From a virus, in the IMG/VR virus record IMGVR_UViG_3300044846_000239, positions 1 to 29,757 of that record: a DNA stretch of 29,757 nucleotides. The stretch is one strand, 5' to 3'. The notes under the pieces were generated by a model. The model had not been told where the DNA came from. It saw only the letters and a program-made list of their open reading frames with translations, and ran no database searches. Below are positions 2,874 through 25,510 of the stretch, in pieces (the stretch's first letter is position 1; the number at the start of each line of letters is the position of its first letter). The translations under genes and the position numbers were made by a program.

Positions 2874-3173
2874 ATGAAAGATGACAAAGGCAGGTTCATA
2901 GCAGGCAACACAGGAAGACCCGCAGGAACACCAAACAAGACCACCAATAAAATCAGAGAGGCATTCCAAACCCTCATAGAAGCCAACCTTGAGAATATGA
3001 CCCTATGGCTCACCCAAGTTGCTGCTGATGACCCGAAGGGCGCACTTGACCTGTTGAACAAGATGGCAGAGTACACAACTCCCAAACTCGCAAGGGTGGA
3101 GAACTCACACGAGGTATCGGATGAGCTAACGAAAATCAAAGTAGAGATTGTCCGAGCTAAACATCAAGAGTAG
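2874..3173 (+). CDS. Probable terminase small subunit
   Basis: The 99-aa protein begins MKDDKGRFIAGNTGRPAGTP, a GRF..GN.GRP..TPNK opening shared by many small proteins found directly before terminase large subunits. The remainder is helical (TTNKIREAFQTLIEANLENM ... DPKGALDLLNKMAEYTTPKL). It lacks a classic helix-turn-helix that I can point to, so the call rests on the opening and on position: it overlaps the large terminase start by 26 nt. It should recognise the packaging site and stimulate the large subunit. Confidence 0.7.
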   Translation: MKDDKGRFIAGNTGRPAGTPNKTTNKIREAFQTLIEANLENMTLWLTQVAADDPKGALDLLNKMAEYTTPKLARVENSHEVSDELTKIKVEIVRAKHQE

Positions 3174-4308
3174 CGAACTCTTTGAAAAGAACTACTCTGC
3201 CCCAACTCGGATAGTAGTCAATCAAGGCGGTAGCCGAAGCGGTAAGACCTACTCGCTTTTGCAGATGCTCATCGTGATGGCGATGGAGGATAGAGGCAAG
3301 GTGTACTCAATCGTGCGCAAGTCTCTGCCCTCTCTGAAGATGACGGCCTATCGTGACTTCTTTGAGATTCTAAATGCCAACGGCCTCTATGATGAGGCAC
3401 GGCATAACAAGAGCGACTACACCTACGAGTTGAATGGCAACCTCTTTGAGTTCATAAGCCTTGACCAACCGCAGAAGAAACGGGGAGCAAGACGTGATTA
3501 CCTATTCTGCAACGAGGCAAATGAACTTACTTGGGAGGATTTCTTTCAGCTCTTGATTCGTACCACAGGCAAGATATGGGTTGACTACAACCCCTCAGAT
3601 GCGTTCCATTGGATATACGATAAGCTACTGACAAGGGATGACGTCACCTACATCCAATCCACATACCTTGATAACCCGTTCTTGGATGCCTCAATCGTTG
3701 AGGAGATAGAGAGGCTGCAACATACGGACAATGACTATTGGAGAATCTACGGATTAGGAGAACGTGGTATGAGCAGAGCCACCATCTTCCAATACGGGCA
3801 GGCAGAGATACCAACGGATGCCACGCTCTTATGTCACGGGATGGACTTTGGGTATACCAATGACCCTACCGCACTTGTGGCAGTTTACAAGTCGGGGGAC
3901 AATCTGTATGTGGATGAGTTGATTTACCGCACGGGTATGACCAACCCCGACATCAGCAACGTATTGAAGTCCCTAAACCTTGACAGACGCACGGAGGTAT
4001 ATGCTGACTCTGCGGAGCCTAAAAGTATTGAGGAGCTGCATCGTATGGGATGGAACGTGAAACCCACGCAGAAGGGCGCAGATAGCGTTATAGTGGGTAT
4101 TGACGTGCTGAAGCGTCACAAGCTATTTGTAACCCCACGAAGCAGCAACCTAATTAAAGAATTGCAAAACTACAAATGGGTAGAAGACAAGAACGGCAAC
4201 CTGCTCAATAAGCCCATAGACGCATTCAACCACGCAATCGATGCGCTCAGATATGCAACGTATAACAAACTCAGCCGCCCTAACTTTGGCAGGTATGCCA
4301 TACGCTAA
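3148..4308 (+). CDS. terL: Terminase large subunit
   Basis: This is the packaging motor and nuclease (386 aa, PBSX/phage terminase 3 type). The ATPase domain shows Walker A GSRSGKT at residues 28-34 and Walker B YLFCNEAN at about 118-125. The RNase-H-like nuclease domain shows GMDFGYTNDP with Asp233, VYADSAEP with Asp287, and AFNHAIDALRY with Asp365 as the metal-binding triad. It cuts concatemers and pumps DNA through the portal. The start is a TTG overlapping the small subunit by 26 nt; no better start lies before Walker A. Length fits the family. The portal gene is more than 10 kb away, an unusual separation. Confidence 0.95.
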   Translation: MSELNIKSSELFEKNYSAPTRIVVNQGGSRSGKTYSLLQMLIVMAMEDRGKVYSIVRKSLPSLKMTAYRDFFEILNANGLYDEARHNKSDYTYELNGNLFEFISLDQPQKKRGARRDYLFCNEANELTWEDFFQLLIRTTGKIWVDYNPSDAFHWIYDKLLTRDDVTYIQSTYLDNPFLDASIVEEIERLQHTDNDYWRIYGLGERGMSRATIFQYGQAEIPTDATLLCHGMDFGYTNDPTALVAVYKSGDNLYVDELIYRTGMTNPDISNVLKSLNLDRRTEVYADSAEPKSIEELHRMGWNVKPTQKGADSVIVGIDVLKRHKLFVTPRSSNLIKELQNYKWVEDKNGNLLNKPIDAFNHAIDALRYATYNKLSRPNFGRYAIR

Positions 4309-4329: not shown

Positions 4330-5046
4330 ATGGAACTAAAGGTAACTGTACCAACCTCCCTGTCGGAGATCACCCTTGACCAATACCAACACTTTGCGAG
4401 GTTGGAGGGCGATGATGAGTTCTTGACCCATAAGATGATTGAGATCTTCTGCGGGGTTCCCCTTGCGTCGCTTCCGAACGTACGCATCAAAGACGTGAGC
4501 CACATCAGCAATCACATTACTGCGATGATCAACGAAAAGCCCAAGCTTACGCCAACCTTCACGATGGGTGGCAAGAGGTACGGGTTTATCCCTGAGCTTG
4601 ACAATATCACATACGGGGAGTTCGTTGACCTTGACGGCTACCTTCAAGACGTGCAAGACCTTCACAAGGCGATGGCAGTATTGTACCGCCCCATCACAAA
4701 CGAGGTCGGCAATCGGTATTTGATAGAGCCGTATGAGGGATCGAGTAAATACTCGGAGCAGATGAAGCAAGCCCCGATGGATGTGACGATGGGAGCCACG
4801 CTTTTTTTTTGGCGTTTAGGGAACGAATTGTTACAGGCTATGCTAACCTCTTTGGAGAATCAGAGTCAGAAAACGAATACTCAAGACAATCCCAATTCGC
4901 CAAACAATGGGGTTGGTATGCAACAATCTATCAGCTTGCTAAAGGAGATATTAGGGAGTTTGGAGCAATTACAAGACTTCAGCTCCACGAGTGCTTACAC
5001 TTCCTCACGTTCGAAAAGCAAAAGCAGGAAGTTGAAAACGACCTAA
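4330..5046 (+). CDS. Tail-assembly-chaperone-like protein (zero frame)
   Basis: The 238-aa protein belongs to a family I associate with Bacteroidetes phages: KVTVPTSLSEITLDQYQHF at the N-terminus, YGFIPELDNITYGEFVDLD in the middle, then HKAMAVLYRPI and GATLFFWRLGNELL. Its C-terminal 78 residues after the T9 run are polar and low in complexity (SQKTNTQDNPNSP), followed by NNGVGMQQSISLLKEILGSL. The C-terminal half of the gene overlaps a -1 frame that encodes a different plausible domain (4809-5066), linked by the slippery run at 4802-4810. That arrangement resembles lambda G/G-T tail chaperones, although here the gene lies directly after terL rather than directly before the tape measure. The function is inferred from this architecture. 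Confidence 0.6.
   Translation: MELKVTVPTSLSEITLDQYQHFARLEGDDEFLTHKMIEIFCGVPLASLPNVRIKDVSHISNHITAMINEKPKLTPTFTMGGKRYGFIPELDNITYGEFVDLDGYLQDVQDLHKAMAVLYRPITNEVGNRYLIEPYEGSSKYSEQMKQAPMDVTMGATLFFWRLGNELLQAMLTSLENQSQKTNTQDNPNSPNNGVGMQQSISLLKEILGSLEQLQDFSSTSAYTSSRSKSKSRKLKTT
4802..4810 (+). other. T9 slippery site for -1 ribosomal frameshifting
   Basis: In the frame of the 4330 gene the codons read CTT TTT TTT TGG. The phase contains the ideal heptamer T TTT TTT, so both P-site and A-site tRNA-Phe can re-pair fully after slipping back one base. The -1 frame is open to 5066. A 245-aa fusion would result, against 238 aa without slippage. Confidence 0.6.
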
Positions 5047-5066
5047 TAAAAAAGTCAATAAAATGA
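4809..5066 (+). CDS. -1 frame domain overlapping the chaperone-like gene
   Basis: The 85-residue frame reads MAFRERIVTGYANLFGESE then QFAKQWGWYATIYQLAKGDI, REFGAITRLQLHECLHFLTF and EKQKQEVENDLIKK. It looks like a folded helical domain and resembles a WGWY..IY.LA.GD family that I recall from Bacteroidetes phages next to the upstream family. It may be made as a -1 frameshift fusion from the T9 run (first 160 residues of the 4330 gene plus this domain), or independently from the TTG at 4809. It overlaps the zero frame by about 240 nt, so that DNA codes for two proteins. It ends with an ATGA overlap into the next gene. Confidence 0.6.
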   Translation: MAFRERIVTGYANLFGESESENEYSRQSQFAKQWGWYATIYQLAKGDIREFGAITRLQLHECLHFLTFEKQKQEVENDLIKKSIK

Positions 5067-5530
5067 GGCAATTCTACGACATCACCACCAAGCTGAAAGA
5101 TACTCTTGAGGCGAATAGCCAAGTCAACGTGGTAACGACAGGCGATATATTCGACATCGACCTAAACAAGCAGACCATCTTCCCCCTGTCGCACATCATT
5201 GTGAACCAAGCAACATTCGAAGGACAGATAGTCCGAATGAACGTGAGCATCGTTTGTATGGACTTGGTAGATGAAACCAAAGAGAACCCTCGCTTGCAGG
5301 CAGAGCCGTTCTATGGCGTGAGCAACGAGCAGAATATCTTGAACACGCAGCTCGCAGTAATCAACGATGTCATCACAGAACTGCGCAGGGGTACTTTGTA
5401 CACCGACCTTTACCAGTTGGATGGCACCGCATCTTGCGTTCCCTTCAGCGAGAGGTTCGAGAACCTGCTTGCAGGATGGACTGCTACCTTTGATGTACTG
5501 CTTGCAAACACCGAGATAAGCGTCTGCTAA
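5063..5530 (+). CDS. Probable tail completion/terminator-like protein
   Basis: The 155-aa protein starts MRQFYDITTKLKDTLEANSQ, an amphipathic helix followed by alternating strand-rich segments (SHIIVNQATFEGQIVRMNVS, ATFDVLLANTEI). This alpha-plus-beta layout, the size and its position between the chaperone-like gene and a gp10-like neck protein match tail terminator/tail completion proteins of siphophages. No catalytic motif is seen. ATG 5063 overlaps the preceding stop. The role is inferred from size, fold pattern and position only. Confidence 0.45.
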   Translation: MRQFYDITTKLKDTLEANSQVNVVTTGDIFDIDLNKQTIFPLSHIIVNQATFEGQIVRMNVSIVCMDLVDETKENPRLQAEPFYGVSNEQNILNTQLAVINDVITELRRGTLYTDLYQLDGTASCVPFSERFENLLAGWTATFDVLLANTEISVC

Positions 5531-6050: not shown

Positions 6051-7312
6051 GTACACCAGTATCAGCACTACCTGCCAGCTTAGCGCAAGCTCGTAGCCCT
6101 TTATTTGTAACGATAAAAAACAACGCGCTACCAAACGATGCACTCTACTCTATGGATTTAGCCCTTGCTATCTATACAGGGGCGCAGACGCCAGTAGCAG
6201 GTCAAACAACATACAACCTGTCAAAGTCCTACTCTGTAAATCAAGTGATAAACTTTGAGGTTTCTGATTTGGTGCGGGAGCGCTTCTTGCACCCATTTGG
6301 CAAAACATTTATCACCGCACCAAGCACGTCGGAAACGGGCGAGGGGTTGTGGGTGCGCCGATCTGCTGACTATGAATATAGTAACAATGGCGCTGTGCCA
6401 GAGAGTGGCTCAACGGGAAATAACTACTTCTTTGTTTTGGATGGCTATAAGTCATTAGGGGAGCAGCAGAATACGGGAGTAACGCAGCCCAACCTGTTCA
6501 CCAACCGCCCAATGCAGGTGCTTGCAGGTAACTACCAATCGCTGCCTGTATCATACAACACCACAAGTGGAGTCAACGGATTCAGTATTGAAATCAATGG
6601 ATCAGAATACTGGTTCTCTTTGAATGATGAGCTGGGCTATGCCAACACCACGCTTGTCTCTACGCAGCGTGTTATATACATTCCCTCTGGAGTTGCTAAC
6701 GTAGCAGCATTTTTAGGAATCACACCAACAGACAACTACACCATCAACCTTCTTGTCAATAGCGAAGGAATCGCCTACAACGATAGGGTGAAGACTGATG
6801 GAGGGGTAGTAGAGGGACTTGATTGCCTATGCGAAGCACTTGAGGCATTAGGTGAGGTAGATGACAAGACCGCAGTAGACTTTGAAGTTATATGCGAGCC
6901 GAAGTACGACCCATACCTTGTGCAGTTCGTGAACAAGTTCGGGATGAGCGACTACATTACCTTCTTCAAAAAGTCAACAGAACGAGGGGATTTTACCCAA
7001 GACCAATACCAAAAGAGCATCTATGCGGATGGCTTTACCGATGTGAACTATACCAACGGCAAATATCAGTCCTTCAATATCAACTCACGCAACACCATAA
7101 CTCTAAACACGGGCTTTGTAGATGAGTCGTACGGTGAGATAGTAGAGGAGATTCTAATGAGCGAGAAAGTGGCAGTCTACGAAGACGGCCAATGGGTAGC
7201 GATCGTTCCTAATCGTGGAAGCGTGGACTACCTAAAGTCAATTAACGATAAGAACATAAACTACACGATGGCCTTCACTTACGCCTTTGACCAGCGGATG
7301 CTTGTACGATGA
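6047..7312 (+). CDS. Large structural protein, probable tail tip/baseplate, with DGG cassette
   Basis: This 421-aa protein has no enzyme motif. It begins MSTPVSALPASLAQARSPLF and is rich in beta strands and in Asn/Thr/Ser. The second half carries CEPKYDPYLVQFVNKFGMSD, YITFFKKSTERGDFTQDQYQ and DYLKSINDKNINYTMAFTYA. I recall the family as a hypothetical virion protein of Bacteroidetes phages. Residues 247-260 contain RVKTDGGVVEGLDC, one of four copies of a cassette also found in two other proteins here; it appears to interrupt the smooth passage from NYTINLLVNSEGIA to VDFEVICEPKYDP. The next gene overlaps as ATGA. A tail-tip role is inferred from position just before a similar large protein and the tape measure. 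Confidence 0.55.
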   Translation: MSTPVSALPASLAQARSPLFVTIKNNALPNDALYSMDLALAIYTGAQTPVAGQTTYNLSKSYSVNQVINFEVSDLVRERFLHPFGKTFITAPSTSETGEGLWVRRSADYEYSNNGAVPESGSTGNNYFFVLDGYKSLGEQQNTGVTQPNLFTNRPMQVLAGNYQSLPVSYNTTSGVNGFSIEINGSEYWFSLNDELGYANTTLVSTQRVIYIPSGVANVAAFLGITPTDNYTINLLVNSEGIAYNDRVKTDGGVVEGLDCLCEALEALGEVDDKTAVDFEVICEPKYDPYLVQFVNKFGMSDYITFFKKSTERGDFTQDQYQKSIYADGFTDVNYTNGKYQSFNINSRNTITLNTGFVDESYGEIVEEILMSEKVAVYEDGQWVAIVPNRGSVDYLKSINDKNINYTMAFTYAFDQRMLVR

Positions 7313-9327: not shown

Positions 9328-9476
9328 AGGCAAGCTATTTAAGTTATTTAATTGAAATACTAAACTCGGAGGAGTGGTTTGGCGAGGGTGAGTGCATTGA
9401 AATCGCCAAAGGCAAGAACAAACTACCCGAAGGATGGAAAGAATATATTAAGCTACAATGGCGGCAGTTGAAATAA
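9324..9476 (+). CDS. Small conserved-looking protein before the tape measure
   Basis: This is a 50-aa ORF (MKASYLSYLIEILNSEEWFG ... LPEGWKEYIKLQWRQLK). ATG 9324 overlaps the stop of the large tail gene as ATGA, and its end overlaps the tape measure start by 19 nt. The tight double overlap, and the absence of any other coding solution for this 130-nt stretch, support it as real. It is Trp/Lys/Glu-rich and has no membrane segment. I do not recognise it; a small tail-assembly factor is conceivable. Confidence 0.6.
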   Translation: MKASYLSYLIEILNSEEWFGEGECIEIAKGKNKLPEGWKEYIKLQWRQLK

Positions 9477-10996
9477 TTGAGATTAAAGGGGATGCAAGTC
9501 AGGCAATCGCTGCGCTTAAGGCCGTAGGGATAGAGGCTGACAAGACCCAGACCAAAGCCAAAGAGAGTAATGAGGCCATTAGCAATGGTTTATCTGCATT
9601 AGACAAGCAGACGGGTGGCGCGGTCTCCGCGTTCAAAGGATTGCAGGGTGGTATCACAAGCACCATTCGAGCCTTCGGTACGCTTAAGGGTGCAATCATC
9701 GCAACGGGCTTGGGTGCCCTGCTTGTGGCAGTAACATCGCTCGTTGCGTATTTCAAAGAAACCGAACGTGGTGGCGATGCCCTTGCTGAGGTTATGGGTG
9801 GTCTTGGCGCAGCCGTAAAGGTTGTGATTGACCGAGTAATTGGATTAGGCGAGGCTTTATTTAAGTTCTTTGAAGGAGACTTCAAGGGTGCCATTGATGG
9901 CGTTACGGGTGCCTTTAAGGGGTTAGGTGATGAGATTGCAAGAGAGACCAAGATCGGTAGAGAGCTTGCCAAGCAGCTCAACGATGTAGAGGATGCCGAA
10001 CGTGCGCTTATCGCACAACGTGCTATTGCCAACAGGCAGATTGCAGAGGCCCGCCTCATCGCTGATGACGTTACCAAAAGCACCGAAGCTCGCACAGCCG
10101 CTATCCAAAAAGCGGGTGCTATCGAGGAGCGTGTAGCCCGTCAAGAATTAGCCGTTCAACGGCAGCGTTTGAACGTATTGCTAGAGCAAGCTAAGATGGG
10201 TGAGGTCACCGAAGATGGTTTAGTTCGTATTGAGGAGGCTCGTGCGAGAATATCGGAGCTTGAGCAGGCAAACATTATGCGTCGCAAGAGGCTTCAGACC
10301 GAAACCATTTCATTGATCAACGAAGAAATTGCTAAAATCAAAGAACTTGAGAAAGCAACAACCGATGCGTCAAAAGCAAGATTTGATAATAGCGAAAAGA
10401 AGTTCAAGGACTTTGTAGATAAATCCGTAGATGCAAGCAAGCAGGGTGGCGCAGAGATAGCGAGGGTAGGTCAGTTCTTTACTGAATCAATCGCCGACGG
10501 AGCAACAAGCGCAGCAGCCGATTTGGGTGACTACATTAACTTCACCATTGCAAACCTTGACGCGGTAAGTGGAGCCATCAGCGGGTTTGCTGCACTTGCG
10601 GGCGAGAACACTAAAATTAGCAAGGCCCTTGCAATGACTCAGATTGTGATTGACACATATATGGGTGCCACCAAAGCATTGGGTGCATACCCTCCGCCCT
10701 TTGGTGCTATCGCTGCCGCAGGCGTAATTGCAGGTGGTATTGCAAACTTGAGGAAGGTAAGCTCTACGCAGATCCCTACTACGGCCAACGCTTCCGCGCC
10801 TACAACCATAACCGCGCCGACTGCCCCATCACAACCACCGCAGTTTAACATCGTAGGGCAGGGTGGCGTGAACCAACTTGCACAAAGCATAGGTGGTCAG
10901 TTCAACCAACCCGTTCGTGCTTACGTAGTAGGGCAGGATGTAACGACCTCACAACAACTACAACGCCAAAGAGTAAGAACCGCAACATTCGGATGA
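9458..10996 (+). CDS. Tape measure protein
   Basis: This 512-aa protein has the layout of a tape measure: an N-terminal helical, Ala/Lys-rich region (residues 1-60), a hydrophobic Gly/Ala-rich stretch (GAIIATGLGALLVAVTSLVA at about 80-100), long coiled-coil sequence (about 160-320, rich in Ala/Glu/Arg/Lys), and a second hydrophobic Gly/Ala region (about 370-430) before a Pro/Thr-rich tail. It sets tail length. At the usual ~0.15 nm per residue, 512 residues would give a short tail of roughly 75 nm. It follows, rather than precedes, the probable tail-tip genes, which is the reverse of the lambda order. Confidence 0.85.
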   Translation: MAAVEIIEIKGDASQAIAALKAVGIEADKTQTKAKESNEAISNGLSALDKQTGGAVSAFKGLQGGITSTIRAFGTLKGAIIATGLGALLVAVTSLVAYFKETERGGDALAEVMGGLGAAVKVVIDRVIGLGEALFKFFEGDFKGAIDGVTGAFKGLGDEIARETKIGRELAKQLNDVEDAERALIAQRAIANRQIAEARLIADDVTKSTEARTAAIQKAGAIEERVARQELAVQRQRLNVLLEQAKMGEVTEDGLVRIEEARARISELEQANIMRRKRLQTETISLINEEIAKIKELEKATTDASKARFDNSEKKFKDFVDKSVDASKQGGAEIARVGQFFTESIADGATSAAADLGDYINFTIANLDAVSGAISGFAALAGENTKISKALAMTQIVIDTYMGATKALGAYPPPFGAIAAAGVIAGGIANLRKVSSTQIPTTANASAPTTITAPTAPSQPPQFNIVGQGGVNQLAQSIGGQFNQPVRAYVVGQDVTTSQQLQRQRVRTATFG

Positions 10997-12854: not shown

Positions 12855-13781
12855 ATGGCTACAACTACTTCAATCACCACTTCGTACGCTGGTCAATTCG
12901 CCAGCAAGTACATCTCTGCTGCTCTTTTGAGTGCAGACACGCTTGACAAAGGTCTTATCGAGATCCTTCCAAACGTAAACTACCGCACCACCCTTCAGAA
13001 GGTTAACACAAACGACATCGTAAAAGATGCCACTTGTGATTTCGATGCAACTTCTACCTTGACTTTGACCGACCGCATCCTTGAGGTTGAGCCATTTCAA
13101 GTGAACTTGCAGCTTTGCAAGAAGGACTACTACGATTCTTGGATCGGTGGTCAAATGGGTTTCTCTGCTTACGATAGCATCCCCGCTTCTTTCGCTGATT
13201 TCTTGATTGCACACGTTGCTTCAAAGACTGCCCAAAAGATTGAGCAGAACATTTGGAACGGAACTGCTGCAAGTGCAGGAGAATTTAGCGGATTCCTTTC
13301 ATTGATGACTGCTGACTCAGACGTTATTGACGTAACCGCTACCACCGTGACTGCTGCAAACGTAATCGCAGAGCTTGGTAAAGTTGTAGACGCTATCCCT
13401 TCTGCCCTTTACGGCAAGGAGGACTTGACTATCTACGTTCCACAAAACGTAGCAAAGGCTTATGTCCGCGCTCTTGGTGGATTCGGAACTTCAGGTCTTG
13501 GAGCAAATGGTGTTGACAATAAAGGTACTACTTGGTACGGCAACGGAGATTTGTTCTTCGATGGTATCCGTGTTGCTATGGCCAACGGTCTTCCTTCTAA
13601 CAAGATGGTTGCTGCTCAGTCTTCAAACCTATTCTTCGGAACAGGTCTTCTGAACGAGCGTAACGAAGTTCGCGTTCTTGATATGGCTGACCTTGACGGA
13701 TCAGACAATATCCGCGTGATCCTCAGGTTTTTCGCAGGGGTCAATTACGGGATCGGTTCGGACGTCGTTCTGTACAGTTAA
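12855..13781 (+). CDS. Major capsid protein
   Basis: This is a 308-aa protein with the features of an HK97-fold capsid subunit of the Bacteroidetes-phage type: N-arm MATTTSITTSYAGQFASKYI, spine and P-domain segments (ASFADFLIAHVASKTAQKIE, EDLTIYVPQNVAKAYVRAL), and C-terminus IRVILRFFAGVNYGIGSDVV. It has strong A-rich leader sequence (aaataaaaa before ATG), codon use enriched in frequent codons compared with neighbours, and a terminator directly after, all signs of high expression. Position after protease and scaffold-like genes confirms the assignment. No crosslinking residues can be assigned. Confidence 0.85.
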   Translation: MATTTSITTSYAGQFASKYISAALLSADTLDKGLIEILPNVNYRTTLQKVNTNDIVKDATCDFDATSTLTLTDRILEVEPFQVNLQLCKKDYYDSWIGGQMGFSAYDSIPASFADFLIAHVASKTAQKIEQNIWNGTAASAGEFSGFLSLMTADSDVIDVTATTVTAANVIAELGKVVDAIPSALYGKEDLTIYVPQNVAKAYVRALGGFGTSGLGANGVDNKGTTWYGNGDLFFDGIRVAMANGLPSNKMVAAQSSNLFFGTGLLNERNEVRVLDMADLDGSDNIRVILRFFAGVNYGIGSDVVLYS

Positions 13782-13801
13782 TCCGAGTTAACGTAAATCA
13801 T

Positions 13802-13836
13802 AGGGGGGCTTGGGCTATGTCCTCGCCCCCTTTTTT
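13802..13836 (+). terminator. Rho-independent terminator after the capsid gene
   Basis: A six-pair stem (AGGGGG with CCCCCT) closes a loop of about 18 nt and is followed directly by a run of T. It would end or reduce transcription after the major capsid gene. Confidence 0.7.
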
Positions 13837-13858
13837 AATCTAATAAAACAAAGAAAAA

Positions 13859-14395
13859 ATGTCGTGTGATTTAACTAAAGGTAGAGAAATTCCCTGTAAA
13901 GACGTAACAGGTGGGCTTTACAAAATTACGTTCATCAATTATGGTGATATGGGTAACATCGCTTTTACAGATGATGAAATTACTGACATTAGCGGAACTT
14001 TTACCGCTTATGTTTACGAAGTAAAAGGCAATAGCTCATTTGAGCAAGCATTCAATTCAAGCCGCGAGAATGGTACTACATTCTTCACGCAGACTTTGAA
14101 TGTCACTTTGCCAAAACTTACTAAAGAAGATAATAAGCAGTTAAAGTTGATGGCCTATGGCCGCCCTCAAGTGGTGATTCAAGACAACAACGGAAACGCA
14201 TTTATGATGGGTCTGAACTACGGAGCTGAAGTAACTGGCGGAACGATTGTAACTGGTGCTGCAATGGGTGACCTTTCTGGCTATACCTTGACTTTAGAGG
14301 CACAGGAGCAACTTCCCGCTAACTTCATTGAGGGAGCTACAAAAGCCAATCCATTTGCAGGTTGTACCGCGACTGTAGTGCTTGACTTTAATTAA
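13859..14395 (+). CDS. Probable major tail tube protein
   Basis: The 178-aa protein begins MSCDLTKGREIPCKDVTGGL and continues with KITFINYGDMGNIAF, then SSFEQAFNSSRENGTTFFTQ, LNVTLPKLTKEDNKQLKLMA and GAEVTGGTIVTGAAMGDLSG. The beta-rich layout with a late YTLTLEAQEQLPANFIEG matches a family I recall as the tail-tube candidate of Bacteroidetes siphophages. The very A-rich leader (aaagaaaaa) and flanking terminators on both sides indicate a highly expressed single-gene unit, as expected for a tube protein made in many copies. It lies in the head module rather than beside the tape measure. Confidence 0.6.
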   Translation: MSCDLTKGREIPCKDVTGGLYKITFINYGDMGNIAFTDDEITDISGTFTAYVYEVKGNSSFEQAFNSSRENGTTFFTQTLNVTLPKLTKEDNKQLKLMAYGRPQVVIQDNNGNAFMMGLNYGAEVTGGTIVTGAAMGDLSGYTLTLEAQEQLPANFIEGATKANPFAGCTATVVLDFN

Positions 14396-14440
14396 ATAAA
14401 TGAGGCGGCATAAGCGCTTTGTATTTACAGGTAAAAGGAG

Positions 14441-14466
14441 AAAGGGGCGCAAGCCCCTTTTCTATT
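14441..14466 (+). terminator. Rho-independent terminator after the tube-like gene
   Basis: A perfect 8-bp stem, AAAGGGGC with GCCCCTTT, closes a GCAA tetraloop of the GNRA class. The 3' arm runs into a T-rich tail. Together with the terminator at 13802 it isolates the tube-like gene. Confidence 0.75.
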
Positions 14467-14503
14467 TTCAAACAAATCGGAATTAAAAGGTTATTTACTT
14501 AAG

Positions 14504-14938
14504 ATGCATATCCTTCAAGTATCAGCTTCACCTCAAACCATTACGGTAATCCCTCGTGAGTTCGTTTACTCATCAGAGGATTTGGACTTGTACTTCGAGC
14601 GTGTGTTGTTTGATGGTGGCACTTTAGAGGCCACAGGATGCGTTCAGAGCGCAGTTAACGACATTGATGGTGTTACGCTATATTTGATTGATGAAAGCAC
14701 CAACACAGAGCAAGAAATCAATCCCACGATAACAGAGGCCAATGGCTTTATGGATCTCACGGCAGTCTATACATTAGTCAACAACCGATTCTACGGCCTT
14801 AAATTAATATACGATGGTGACCTTATCTACCGAGATAGGGTATTCGTAACTTCGCAAACAGATTTCGACAAATTTACCGTGAACCAAAACGTCTACACGG
14901 AAGAAACAAGCTACAATAATGAGTACATCATCATCTAA
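14504..14938 (+). CDS. Small structural protein with inserted DGG cassette
   Basis: This is a 144-aa beta-rich protein. It starts MHILQVSASPQTITVIPREF and ends with a strand-rich part (FYGLKLIYDGDLIYRDRVFV) of a family I recall from Bacteroidetes phages between tube and portal genes. Residues 33-46, RVLFDGGTLEATGC, are one of four copies of a cassette shared with the proteins at 6047 and 17273. The cassette sits between EDLDLY and GVTLYLIDES, as though added between two strands of an otherwise continuous domain. The stop overlaps the portal start by 20 nt. The exact role is unknown. Confidence 0.6.
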   Translation: MHILQVSASPQTITVIPREFVYSSEDLDLYFERVLFDGGTLEATGCVQSAVNDIDGVTLYLIDESTNTEQEINPTITEANGFMDLTAVYTLVNNRFYGLKLIYDGDLIYRDRVFVTSQTDFDKFTVNQNVYTEETSYNNEYIII

Positions 14939-16709
14939 AGTCCACGTTGTGAACTTCAGTTCCTACACCACACCTGTTGTAAAAGAGGTGCAGGGCAAAG
15001 ACTACGTTGAATACGGAGATAACAACGACTACTTCGGCTATCTGATTGACAGATACAACGGCTCACCAACCAACAACGCCATCTTAAACTCTTTGATGGA
15101 TATGACATTTGGTAAGGGCTTAGACGCAACGGACTCTGCCAAGAAGCCGAGCGAGTACGCAGCGATGCGTGGCCTGTTCACGAAAGCCTGCTTGCAGAAG
15201 GTCGTAGCGGATTATGTTATGATGGGGCAATGCTCTTTTCAAGTGGTGTACTCACAAGACCACAATATGATCGTAGAGGTTCAGCACATCCCCGTAGAGA
15301 CATTGAGAGCCGCAAGGTGCAACGAAGACGGTGAGGTTGAGGCTTACTACTACGCAAAGGATTGGAATGCCGTAAGCAGCAGAAAAGAGACTGCGGTTCG
15401 CATCCCTGCATTTGGCACAAGCCGTGAGGGATTGGAAATCCTTTACATCAAGCCATACCGAGCAGGATTCTACTATTACTCCCCAGTAGACTATCAAGGT
15501 GGCCTTCCTTACGCAGAACTTGAGGAGGAGATTGCCAACTACCACATCAACAACATTCAGAACGGTCTTGCACCTTCTATGCTTATCAACTTCAACAACG
15601 GCGTGCCGAGTGAAGAAGAACGCAGGAGCATAGAGCAGCAGATTGCAACGAAGTTTAGCGGTAGTTCAAACTCTGGCAAGTTCATCCTTGCGTTCAACGA
15701 CAATAAAGAACTCGCTGCAACGGTTGACCCAGTGCAACTTTCAGATGCCGCTAATCAGTATCAGTTCTTGAGTTCAGAGGCAACGCAGAAGATATTGGTT
15801 TCGCATCGTATCGTAAGCCCTATGCTTTTGGGTATTAAAGACAATACAGGATTCGGCAATAACGCAGATGAACTGAAGACCGCTTCCACACTTTTGGATA
15901 ACCTTGTAATCCGCCCGAAGCAGGAGATTATCATTGACGGCATAGACCAAATCTTGGCCTACAACGACATCAGCCTAAACTTATACTTCAAGACCCTTCA
16001 GCCTTTAGAGTTTACCAATGACGTGGTGACTCCTATGGATATGGAGACCCGCGAGGAGCAGACGGGGGTTAAGCTATCAAGCCAAGCCCCAGAATTCTCC
16101 CAAGATGATGAGCATAAGTGGATAGATGCTCTGCGGGGAAAGGGTGAGGTCGTTGATTTAGAAGAATGGGAACTCATCAGCGATGAGATAGTCAACGACC
16201 CAGATAACGAGGACACCCACCTCGCTACCCAGTACAACTTTGCCGTAGAGGATTTCAGTAACCCCGAAGAAAAGAGCAGCTTTGATAGCGGGCTTTACAA
16301 AATACGCTACGCATACACCCGTAACATCAGCAGCAACTCCCGCGAGTTCTGCCGTGAGATGGTAGGAGCAGCAAACGGAGGAACAGTATTTCGCAAAGAA
16401 GACATCGATATGATGAGCTTTAGCGGTGTTAATGGTCAGTTCGCTCCCGAAGGCCAGAGCGTGTACTCTATCTGGAAGTGGAAGGGTGGGGCGTTCTGCC
16501 ACCACGCTTGGAGGCGTTTGGTTTACTTCCGCAAGAGGCAGGGTGGTAAGTTCCTACCCAACGAAGGTCTAGACAACGACAAGCTAGTATCAACGGAAGC
16601 TGCAATTAAAGAAGGCGTGCCAACCAGCAAGCTCGTTCCTAACGGATGGGATGCTGCTCAAACACGACCTATTGACACATCATCAAGAGGATCATTAAAA
16701 TACAGATAA
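14919..16709 (+). CDS. Portal protein with C-terminal Cys/His domain
   Basis: The 596-aa protein has a phage portal core over about residues 20-400: YVEYGDNNDYFGYLIDRYNG, then PTNNAILNSLMDMTFGKGL, PVETLRAARCNEDGE, LPYAELEEEIANYHINNIQN, and SSEATQKILVSHRIVSPMLL followed by the stem/wing segments. It forms the dodecameric gate for DNA and docks the terminase. Residues about 455-560 form a second domain, SREFCREMVGAANGGTVFRK followed later by GGAFCHHAWRRLVYFRKRQ, with conserved Cys and His residues that might bind zinc. This domain is usually seen in head morphogenesis proteins, so here it is fused to the portal. Confidence 0.85.
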   Translation: MSTSSSKVHVVNFSSYTTPVVKEVQGKDYVEYGDNNDYFGYLIDRYNGSPTNNAILNSLMDMTFGKGLDATDSAKKPSEYAAMRGLFTKACLQKVVADYVMMGQCSFQVVYSQDHNMIVEVQHIPVETLRAARCNEDGEVEAYYYAKDWNAVSSRKETAVRIPAFGTSREGLEILYIKPYRAGFYYYSPVDYQGGLPYAELEEEIANYHINNIQNGLAPSMLINFNNGVPSEEERRSIEQQIATKFSGSSNSGKFILAFNDNKELAATVDPVQLSDAANQYQFLSSEATQKILVSHRIVSPMLLGIKDNTGFGNNADELKTASTLLDNLVIRPKQEIIIDGIDQILAYNDISLNLYFKTLQPLEFTNDVVTPMDMETREEQTGVKLSSQAPEFSQDDEHKWIDALRGKGEVVDLEEWELISDEIVNDPDNEDTHLATQYNFAVEDFSNPEEKSSFDSGLYKIRYAYTRNISSNSREFCREMVGAANGGTVFRKEDIDMMSFSGVNGQFAPEGQSVYSIWKWKGGAFCHHAWRRLVYFRKRQGGKFLPNEGLDNDKLVSTEAAIKEGVPTSKLVPNGWDAAQTRPIDTSSRGSLKYR

Positions 16710-20718: not shown

Positions 20719-21126
20719 ATGAACTCGAAACTAAACCCCAACCGACTTGCAATGTGGACAATCCTGCTGACTGCGACTCTTGCGGCTCTTAGCAGTTGCG
20801 CTACTGTGAAACCAGTCCTTCAGAGTGTAGTTGTAAGGGACACGGTCATTGTCACCAAGACAAAGTACCTAACCGACACTCTGGAACTCTACAAGGACAC
20901 GACCATTTACCAAGACAAGGTAAGGCTTCAGCTCCAGTACATCGACAGAAAGGTGTACGTTGAGGCAACGTGCTTGCCCGACACGATCAGAGTTACACAA
21001 ACCAAGATCCTCACGAAGGAGAAGAAGCAGAGGGGATGGACTTTGGAAGGTGCAGCGGTTACGCTTGGGCTTATCCTTGTGGTTGCGTACTTCATCAAGA
21101 AGTGGATAGATAAGCTCGTAGAGTAG
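20719..21126 (+). CDS. Unimolecular spanin candidate (lipoprotein plus C-terminal TM)
   Basis: The 135-aa protein has a positively charged start (MNSKLNPNRLAM), a hydrophobic core (WTILLTATLAALSSC) ending in a lipobox with Cys, an extended periplasmic part rich in Thr/Val/Lys (VVVRDTVIVTKTKYLTDTLE, QDKVRLQLQYIDRKVYVE) and a C-terminal membrane segment (GAAVTLGLILVVAYFIKKW). A lipidated N-terminus in the outer membrane and a C-terminal helix in the inner membrane is the plan of u-spanins such as T1 gp11, which fuse the two membranes at the end of lysis. ATG 20719 is preferred to TTG 20704. Confidence 0.65.
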   Translation: MNSKLNPNRLAMWTILLTATLAALSSCATVKPVLQSVVVRDTVIVTKTKYLTDTLELYKDTTIYQDKVRLQLQYIDRKVYVEATCLPDTIRVTQTKILTKEKKQRGWTLEGAAVTLGLILVVAYFIKKWIDKLVE

Positions 21127-21409
21127 GTTTATTTGGCTTCTGATGCACTTAAATACTAAAATGGTATAAGTGTATGCCTTGAGGTATTTGGATGCGTTAG
21201 AACGCAACTTCTTTCTTTTTCTTTGTTAAGTTTCTTTTTCTTTAAGTTGTTTGGTAAAGTTAAGAGTTGACTAACTATCAACTTAAGTTAACTTGTAAGT
21301 TGATTAATTAGTTAAGTTAAGTAAGTTAACTATTCAACTTGTAAAAAAAAAGGAATAAATTTGACATACGCAAGTACTTATGTTAATTTGTAATGATTCT
21401 AAATAATGA
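21127..21409 (+). other. AT-rich repeat-dense intergenic region, candidate origin
   Basis: This 283-bp gap holds no ORF I can support. Its first 100 bp include pyrimidine runs (tttctttttctttg). From about 21250 to 21345 it is packed with variants of AAGTTAAC / CAACTT in both orientations, for example the inverted repeat TCAACTT...AAGTTGA at 21279-21304 and AAGTTAAGTAAGTTAAC at 21313-21330. It separates the lysis genes from the first early gene and ends with a strong promoter. An origin of replication or operator array is plausible. Confidence 0.45.
21360..21390 (+). promoter_or_regulatory. Early promoter, Bacteroidetes type
   Basis: TTTG at 21360-21363, a 19-nt spacer, and TTAATTTG at 21383-21390 match the Bacteroidetes consensus TTTG-N19..21-TAnnTTTG with one mismatch. 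Transcription would start around 21397, leaving a leader of only about a dozen nt before ATG 21410. Confidence 0.65.
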
Positions 21410-21721
21410 ATGACCATATCTACATTTATTGGGATGACGTACCTTTGGCTAATGACACCAAAGTACTACATCGGCAAGACGTTGAAGATAGAGGCGAAGG
21501 ATGTGGTGATGGACTTCCAACCAGATAATTACAATCTGGGAACTGCCCTCACCTACCTAATGCGTGCAGGCAAGAAACCTCACAACCCTATCTGCGATGA
21601 CATCAGAAAGGCTATCGCACACCTACAATTTGAACTTGAACGACAGGATGAGCAGCAAACCATTAGCGCAACAAGCGAAGGAAGCCAAACAACAACAAGC
21701 CGATATGCAGTACTATACTAA
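21410..21721 (+). CDS. DUF3310-like early protein
   Basis: This is the first gene of the early operon (103 aa). Its centre matches the DUF3310 pattern (a MazG-like helical fold): IEAKDVVMDFQPDNYNLGTA then LTYLMRAGKKPHNPICDDI and RKAIAHLQFELER. This family is common in phages and is suspected to act in nucleotide metabolism, but its reaction is not established. The last 25 residues are Gln/Ser/Thr-rich and overlap the next gene by 74 nt. ATG 21410 gives the family-like frame; another ATG at 21406 opens only a short ORF. Confidence 0.65.
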   Translation: MTISTFIGMTYLWLMTPKYYIGKTLKIEAKDVVMDFQPDNYNLGTALTYLMRAGKKPHNPICDDIRKAIAHLQFELERQDEQQTISATSEGSQTTTSRYAVLY

Positions 21722-24847: not shown

Positions 24848-24995
24848 CGTAGGACTTTACCCAATTTATGGGCTTATCGTAGGGGCTAACTGGTCAAAGA
24901 CCGACTACCTTGAAGAAGATATTGTGATGCACACGGTGCAATTTGCTCTGTTTGTTGTAATTGTAGAAATCACTTGGGACTCCTCGCAGTATTAG
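24837..24995 (+). CDS. Small hydrophobic protein
   Basis: This 52-aa ORF begins in the end of the DnaA-like gene and ends inside the sigma-like gene. It has two hydrophobic stretches, VGLYPIYGLIVGANW and VQFALFVVIVEITW, separated by an acidic turn (KTDYLEEDIVMH), as in a small membrane hairpin. I recall similar short hydrophobic proteins here in related phages. It accounts for the gap of 126 nt between its neighbours. Confidence 0.6.
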   Translation: MNFNVGLYPIYGLIVGANWSKTDYLEEDIVMHTVQFALFVVIVEITWDSSQY

Positions 24996-25510
24996 CAAAG
25001 CGGCAGACCGATTGGATTCGGATGTGCAAGAGCTTTGGCGCAAGCGATGACCTTGCCCAAGAGCTTGTGCAGGAGATGTACGTCAGATTGTACAAATACG
25101 TTGATGATGCCGAGAAAATAATGTACAACGAAACGGAGGTAAACACCTTCTTTGTGTACGTTACGCTCCGCAATATGTACGCCACCTTGATGCGCCAGCG
25201 AGCAAGATTCGAATTCGTAGACGTGGACATTTTAGAGGAGTATATCTACGAGGAGGCTAACGAAGATGCAGAGGTGCAACTCATACAACTCTACGACAGG
25301 GTGTGGTCAACCCAAACTGACTGGCATTGGTACGACAAAAAGATTTTTGCCCTGTACCACAACACCGATATGAGCATCCGTACTTTAGCGGATGAAACAA
25401 AGATTTCAGCACGATCAATTTTCAACACACTAAAAAATGCAAGAGAGCGAATCCAAGAAGACTGTCAAGACACCTACGAAGCGTACAAAGAAGCCAAGCG
25501 GCTTGGGTGA
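24974..25510 (+). CDS. Sigma-70-like (ECF-type) factor
   Basis: The 178-aa protein has the two-domain plan of an ECF sigma factor. Region 2-like: CKSFGASDDLAQELVQEMYV, RLYKY and later NTFFVYVTLRNMYATLMRQR. Region 4-like: YDKKIFALYHNTDMSIRTLA and DETKISARSIFNTLKNARER, a helix-turn-helix that would contact the -35/-33 element. It could direct RNA polymerase to phage promoters such as those upstream of late genes. The start is TTG 24974, overlapping the small hydrophobic ORF by 22 nt; the sequence from LAKRQTDWIRM onward is the expected family start. Confidence 0.65.
   Translation: MGLLAVLAKRQTDWIRMCKSFGASDDLAQELVQEMYVRLYKYVDDAEKIMYNETEVNTFFVYVTLRNMYATLMRQRARFEFVDVDILEEYIYEEANEDAEVQLIQLYDRVWSTQTDWHWYDKKIFALYHNTDMSIRTLADETKISARSIFNTLKNARERIQEDCQDTYEAYKEAKRLG

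Follow-up and report, generated by a model that had tools for sequence, protein, structure and literature searches.

The locus examined here raises the question of whether a run of nine T residues (T9) within a phage gene serves as a slip site and, if so, whether it selects between two different protein C-termini. It lies in a window of 29,757 nucleotides (the whole of the stretch analysed, positions 1 to 29,757 of the IMG/VR virus record IMGVR_UViG_3300044846_000239). The site is conserved, both frames downstream of it are open and the amino acids of both are under selection. We think it probable that the gene at 4330-5066 is of the G/GT type, with a ribosomal -1 slip leading to two selected alternative C-termini. 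The features concerned are the following:

3148-4308, plus strand: terminase large subunit gene (terL), directly upstream (Pfam Terminase_3, 5e-26; the gene order is the same in phage P12024L).
4330-5046, plus strand: zero-frame gene of 238 amino acids (ORF list), presumed tail-assembly chaperone and major (G-like) product.
4330-4809, plus strand: N-terminal part of 160 amino acids shared by both products (AF2 mean pLDDT about 85 for residues 1-160).
4802-4810, plus strand: T9 run, the putative slip site (at least nine T's in all 185 distinct relatives).
4803-4809, plus strand: heptamer T_TTT_TTT (read from the sequence).
4810-5043, plus strand: zero-frame tail of 78 codons (dual-frame selection tests and AF2).
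4809-5066, plus strand: -1-frame tail with the WGWY domain, 85 codons and a stop (predicted GT-like product of 245 amino acids; AF2).
5063-5066, plus strand: ATGA, shared by the stop of the -1 frame and the start codon of the next gene (sequence; next gene 5063-5530).
9458-10996, plus strand: tape measure protein gene, about 4.4 kb downstream (PHROG 3336, tail length tape measure protein, 2.7e-8).

The original prediction read the codons across the run as CTT TTT TTT TGG, with an embedded T_TTT_TTT heptamer, and this is confirmed (CTT at 4801-4803, TTT at 4804-4806, TTT at 4807-4809 and TGG at 4810-4812). The extent of the two open frames was also correct: the zero frame gives 160 + 78 = 238 amino acids and the -1 fusion 160 + 85 = 245. 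The +1 frame is closed after two codons. The end of the zero-frame protein, given as ...LLKEILGSL, was misplaced. The true end is 31 residues further on, at ...KLKTT. An ATGA overlap between the -1-frame stop and the next ATG, as at 5063-5066 in the window, occurs in 130 of 172 distinct relatives. Since the -1 stop overlaps this ATG, there may be translational coupling between ribosomes reading the -1 frame and the next gene.

In the mechanism we propose, most ribosomes would continue straight through T9 to produce the 238-amino-acid protein with its 78-residue zero-frame tail, and a minority would move back by one base on T_TTT_TTT to produce the 245-amino-acid protein with the helical WGWY domain at its C-terminus. 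If the analogy with lambda gpGT holds, the tail tube protein would be recruited by the -1 domain and the tape measure protein bound by the shared part. The zero-frame tail probably forms an additional helix by which the major form is lengthened or made to oligomerise.

Relatives were pooled from a first scan and from wider scans with alignments and divergent members, giving 185 distinct loci. All 80 viral contigs of the first scan carry T9 in the same phase and, as far as each contig reaches, the -1 domain. The gene family is found in more than 500 viral contigs; a survey of 395 Bacteroidota genomes gave matches in two genomes only. The register of the window (2+6+1) is present in 173 of the 185 loci. 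Three others have T9 in a shifted register (1+6+2), eight share the architecture but have T10, in register 0+9+1 with TTT as the first codon, and one, a Dysgonomonas prophage (L158/L174), has T10 as an in-frame fusion. Comparison of the site in related phages had been suggested as a check: no run of fewer than nine T's occurs at the slip site in any of the 185 (T8 is never seen and T10 is seen in nine). The codon preceding TTT TTT ends in T in every case, across seven amino acids (V, L, F, I, G, S and N). T_TTT_TTT, which has the form expected of a -1 frameshift heptamer, is in phase in all relatives except the in-frame T10 fusion, and is conserved beyond the needs of the protein.

Such runs are rare elsewhere in the DNA of these relatives. 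The 1.34 Mb examined contain 253 T9 compared with 15 T8 and three T10, and nearly all of the T9 are the slip site itself. Three further contigs with 99-100% protein identity to the window (L001-L003) also carry T9, which argues against a local sequencing error. In the cultured phage P12024L, gp40 contains T9, and following the -1 frame from there leads through gp41, which is annotated as a gene in its own right. A tree with a midpoint root only and some long branches places the slip site in the short-tail clade, in the long-tail clade and in the Bacteroidales prophages alike. As in G/GT genes, the site joins an upstream ORF to a downstream frame with a conserved C-terminal domain.

Every complete member has about 80-94 open codons in the -1 frame, and the alignment shows in each of them a stretch resembling LxFRxR at the slip as well as a motif resembling WGWY. 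The AF2 model of the -1 tail is compact and all helical (pLDDT 83), and the domain corresponds to PHROG 38404 (function unknown) in 14 of 58 representatives. Some relatives encode both parts in a single ORF, namely L158 (T10) and the remote members L180 and Polaribacter phage Leef_1 gp2. In addition, BFVD proteins of 234-267 amino acids (A0A516L5A8, A0A516L611, A0A6J5SVK3, A0A6J5N0W0, A0A6J7XA66 and A0A6J7WJY4) match both AF2 models. The original prediction had considered the case of relatives carrying the WGWY domain as a gene with its own start and with no slippery run. None was found among the relatives, and in P12024L the separate ORF follows the same T9 and is read in the -1 frame.

The zero-frame tail covers 51-83 codons in the clade of the window (52 tree rows), 83-86 codons in the Bacteroidales prophages with T9 and 16-26 codons in the Nonlabens P12024 clade and L173. 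The long tail may either have been gained more than once or have been lost in the P12024 clade. In the AF2 model of the zero-frame product, one long helix spans the junction and is followed by a weaker second helix and then by disorder; the end of the tail is Ser/Lys-rich and predicted to be disordered. The tail is not an independent known domain but a selected helical extension with a disordered end. Both C-termini had been taken for real families. This stands for WGWY, a real conserved domain, and both frames are selected, but it does not hold for the zero-frame tail as a domain in its own right. Similarly, the proposal that slippage acts as a domain switch applies to the long-tail lineages, which are the majority, but not to all lineages, since the tail of the P12024 clade has only 16-26 codons. 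We would read it as a switch between C-terminal tails.

Selection was assessed in several ways. For the openness of the zero frame, synonymous codons were reassigned in each -1 protein according to its own codon usage and the result compared with that observed. P values lie between <0.0005 and about 0.1 in most long-tail lineages (0.1-0.4 in a few) and between 0.1 and 0.65 in the short-tail clade. A synonymous test was restricted to four-fold codons with an unchanged -1 residue, the N-terminal part being compared at matched distance. In the group with zero-frame tails of 51-66 codons, four-fold divergence is 0.64 in the N-terminal part, 0.37 in the overlap and 0.62 after the zero-frame stop; for disjoint representative pairs the means are 0.63, 0.35 and 0.57, respectively. 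Divergence in the overlap is about half the N-terminal level while both frames are open and recovers past the zero-frame stop, where the sites are few (about 13-16 per matching), so that the strong contrast is that between overlap and N-terminal part. No such suppression is seen in the short-tail clade. With Ala, Pro, Thr and Gly codons, in which a third-base change cannot create a zero-frame stop, the suppression stays (0.37 versus 0.65, median p 7e-8; in a second figure, 0.27 versus 0.60, median p 1.2e-5), these p values being indicative because the pairs share ancestry.

Codon choice in individual columns of the -1 frame was also considered. Pro12 is CCT in 36 of 37 cases and Ala44 is GCT in 50 of 51, each of which keeps a zero-frame Leu. 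Gly16 is GGA in 40 of 42 (zero-frame Glu), Val48 is GTT in 42 of 47 (zero-frame mostly Leu) and Leu43 is CTC or CTT in 47 of 56, even though A represents half of the third-base background. At Leu57, 63 and 66, around or after the zero-frame stops, TTA is again the commonest codon. The protected zero-frame pattern is approximately LGNELL..TL.YLE...NGDGI..S[MI]..LKEML.DL, and overlaps the AF2 helix, which has moderate confidence. Part of this pattern is imposed by the -1 frame (for example, NGDGI over KWGWY), and the codon tests separate the two. These comparisons support the view that both downstream frames are protein-coding with their amino acids under selection. A single slip site choosing between two real C-termini is supported by strong comparative evidence.

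Concerning the slip itself, a downstream stimulatory structure had been suggested as something to look for. None was found: no RNA structure is conserved downstream, and the mean folding z is +0.2 over 59 representatives. An SD-like upstream stimulator has no match in 45 of these 59. A stimulator is not required for all programmed -1 frameshifts. U_UUU_UUU alone is a modest frameshift site in E. coli, and the gpG:gpGT ratio in lambda is 30:1 (PMC5009743). By analogy, a modest site of this type may be sufficient if the -1 form is a minor product, as is gpGT in lambda. A search for literature on frameshifting in these phages found none, but -1 frameshifts in tail-chaperone genes have precedent (PMC5009743, PMC3711429, PMC3091744). 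We infer that slippage occurs and favour the ribosome as its agent, because the in-phase heptamer is conserved and because of this tail-chaperone precedent.

Several other explanations must be considered. If the run were a homopolymer sequencing error, with a true length of T10, the gene would be one in-frame fusion, just as the Dysgonomonas prophage reads (T10, with both parts in the same frame). T9 is, however, found in independent assemblies from many samples (173 of 185, with the cultured P12024L among them), which refutes such an error for the family as a whole; the zero frame would then not be selected, yet selection is seen. We regard this explanation as negligible. The T10 itself lies at 6453-6462 of Dysgonomonas sp. 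520 scaffold15 (L158/L174), where the shared part and WGWY are in one frame; this may reflect a genuine change to an in-frame fusion or else a fault of assembly. The genome contains another copy (L159), which has T9 and two frames. It is also very improbable that WGWY is a separate gene with an internal start and that T9 is incidental, as might be suggested by the ATG-started ORF of 55 amino acids annotated in P12024L and by similar short viral proteins in BFVD. Conservation of the -1 frame starts at the slip (LxFRER), well upstream of that ATG, the heptamer is fully conserved and single-ORF homologues (L158, L180, Leef_1 gp2 and the BFVD proteins) span both parts. An ordinary lambda-like G/GT gene, in which the WGWY fusion alone matters and the zero-frame tail is a chance or tolerated read-through, would be in keeping with the variable (51-83 codons) and predicted disordered end of that tail and with the P12024 clade, which copes with a zero-frame tail of 16-26 codons. 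Chance openness is, however, improbable lineage by lineage, the synonymous suppression is limited to the overlap and affects sites unable to make stops, and individual zero-frame residues are protected. We therefore consider it unlikely by a wide measure.

The remaining alternative retains the two selected tails but attributes the choice between them to transcription: the host RNA polymerase would slip on T9 to give a mixture of messages. The WGWY form would be made from U10 and the zero-frame form from U9, and reading of U8 would stop after two codons. Bacterial RNA polymerase is known to slip in vivo on runs of nine A's or T's, and Thermus dnaX makes use of such a run (PMC5009743). Here, T9 or T10 is present in all 185 loci, in agreement with a run length of about nine or more (PMC5009743), although the heptamer itself needs only seven. 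Moreover, two lineages whose first codon lacks T in its second position have gained a 3' T, making the run nine again, and no ribosomal stimulator is seen. On the other hand, the T10 members indicate that run length is not strictly fixed, and conserved hydrophobic residues flanking FF can account for the extra T's; both points weaken 'exactly nine T' as proof of transcriptional slippage. In addition, the X_XXY_YYZ phase is kept everywhere except in the in-frame T10 fusion, and the tail-chaperone recoding known so far is ribosomal. We consider transcriptional slippage possible, if doubtful. As between the two types of slippage, we roughly, and with moderate confidence, prefer the ribosomal one. 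It is unlikely that this is a phage structural gene in which slippage of RNA polymerase on T9 sets a C-terminal switch between selected overlapping tails, as opposed to adding a domain. We know of no earlier case of tail-chaperone recoding by transcription, and this would be the first.

Returning to the preferred reading of a G/GT-type gene, the N-terminal domain corresponds to PHROG 32199 (function unknown) in 58 of 58 representatives and in the gene of the window. The gene follows terL directly, an arrangement also seen in P12024L. It does not immediately precede the tape measure gene, which begins about 4.4 kb further downstream, and no search identified a tail tube gene. Pfam, NCBIfam and PDB sequence searches with both products gave no convincing match, PDB fold searches gave common helical arrangements only and hhalign gave no similarity to lambda G or HK97 gp13. 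Foldseek returned two proteins annotated as tail assembly chaperones, as weak matches only. The product is most likely a tail-assembly chaperone of the G/GT type, an assignment that relies on architecture and context rather than on homology because similarity to proven tail chaperones is not significant. In proven cases the zero frame ends soon after the slip and the shifted product is clearly longer. The zero frame continues here for 78 codons, and we treat an early end as usual among the proven cases, not as a strict requirement.

Flavobacterium phage 6H gp10 was considered as a cultured example and rejected: the match comes from Foldseek alone (TM about 0.3), the -1 frame closes immediately behind a T6 and a clear slip site could not be seen. 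In the same phage, an unannotated stretch on the minus strand after gp10 (10048-10351) has another frame open for about 100 codons. This could be the C-terminal part of a recoded tail gene that has not been described. Elsewhere in the window, an ORF at 24974-25510 resembles an ECF-type sigma-70 factor (TIGR02937, 8e-9, below the cut-off); P12024L has a sigma-70 region 2 gene before terL. An A9 run is present at 21343-21351, between ORFs ending at 21126 and starting at 21410. The gene order at 12855-16709 is unusual, with the portal gene (14919-16709) far downstream of terL and the tape measure gene. To our knowledge, this is to be expected in few other tailed phages.

In the proven G/GT systems compared here, the major product simply ends just beyond the slip, and the purpose of slipping lies entirely in the fusion domain. 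At this locus, the major product would have its own selected tail, overprinted on the DNA of most of the fusion domain. Comparative analysis shows two selected alternative tails, which would go beyond the textbook lambda G/GT frameshift. The family provides a comparative series (zero-frame tails of 16-26, 51-66 and 70-83 codons, together with in-frame fusions) useful for studying the origin of overprinted tails and the role of the G form beyond the lack of T. It is also a large gene family of Bacteroidota phages that lacks annotation (PHROG 32199 and 38404), in which one site allows a clean test of ribosomal versus transcriptional slippage.

Among known systems, lambda G/GT (-1 on G_GGA_AAG) resembles this gene in having a single start and a single slip site, with two products that have their N-terminal part in common and a C-terminal domain encoded in the -1 frame. 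It differs in its heptamer, in the absence of homology detectable by hhalign and in its zero frame, which ends five codons past the heptamer whereas that of the window continues for 78 codons under selection. The contrast drawn in the original prediction holds: the shifted product of lambda gains a domain and is clearly longer, while the two products here are nearly equal in length and differ in their last third. P2 E/E+E' (T_TTT_TTG), with a T-rich heptamer and a -1 shift, has the slip type closest to that of the window, and no downstream hairpin has been reported for it (PMC3091744); its zero frame ends six codons after the site and its run is T6 rather than T9. HK97 gp13/gp13-14 is likewise a tail gene with a -1 extension, but its zero frame ends about five codons after a likely G_GGA_AAA site and there is no profile similarity. 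The Nonlabens phages P12024L and P12024S (gp40/gp41) belong to the same family, with the same place after terL, T9, a homologous N-terminal part and a -1 WGWY tail. They differ in that their zero-frame tail has 25 codons and their two parts are annotated as separate hypothetical proteins. Finally, Thermus thermophilus dnaX also has a run of nine and two C-termini from one gene (PMC5009743), but the gene is unrelated and it is the non-shifted product that is the long one.
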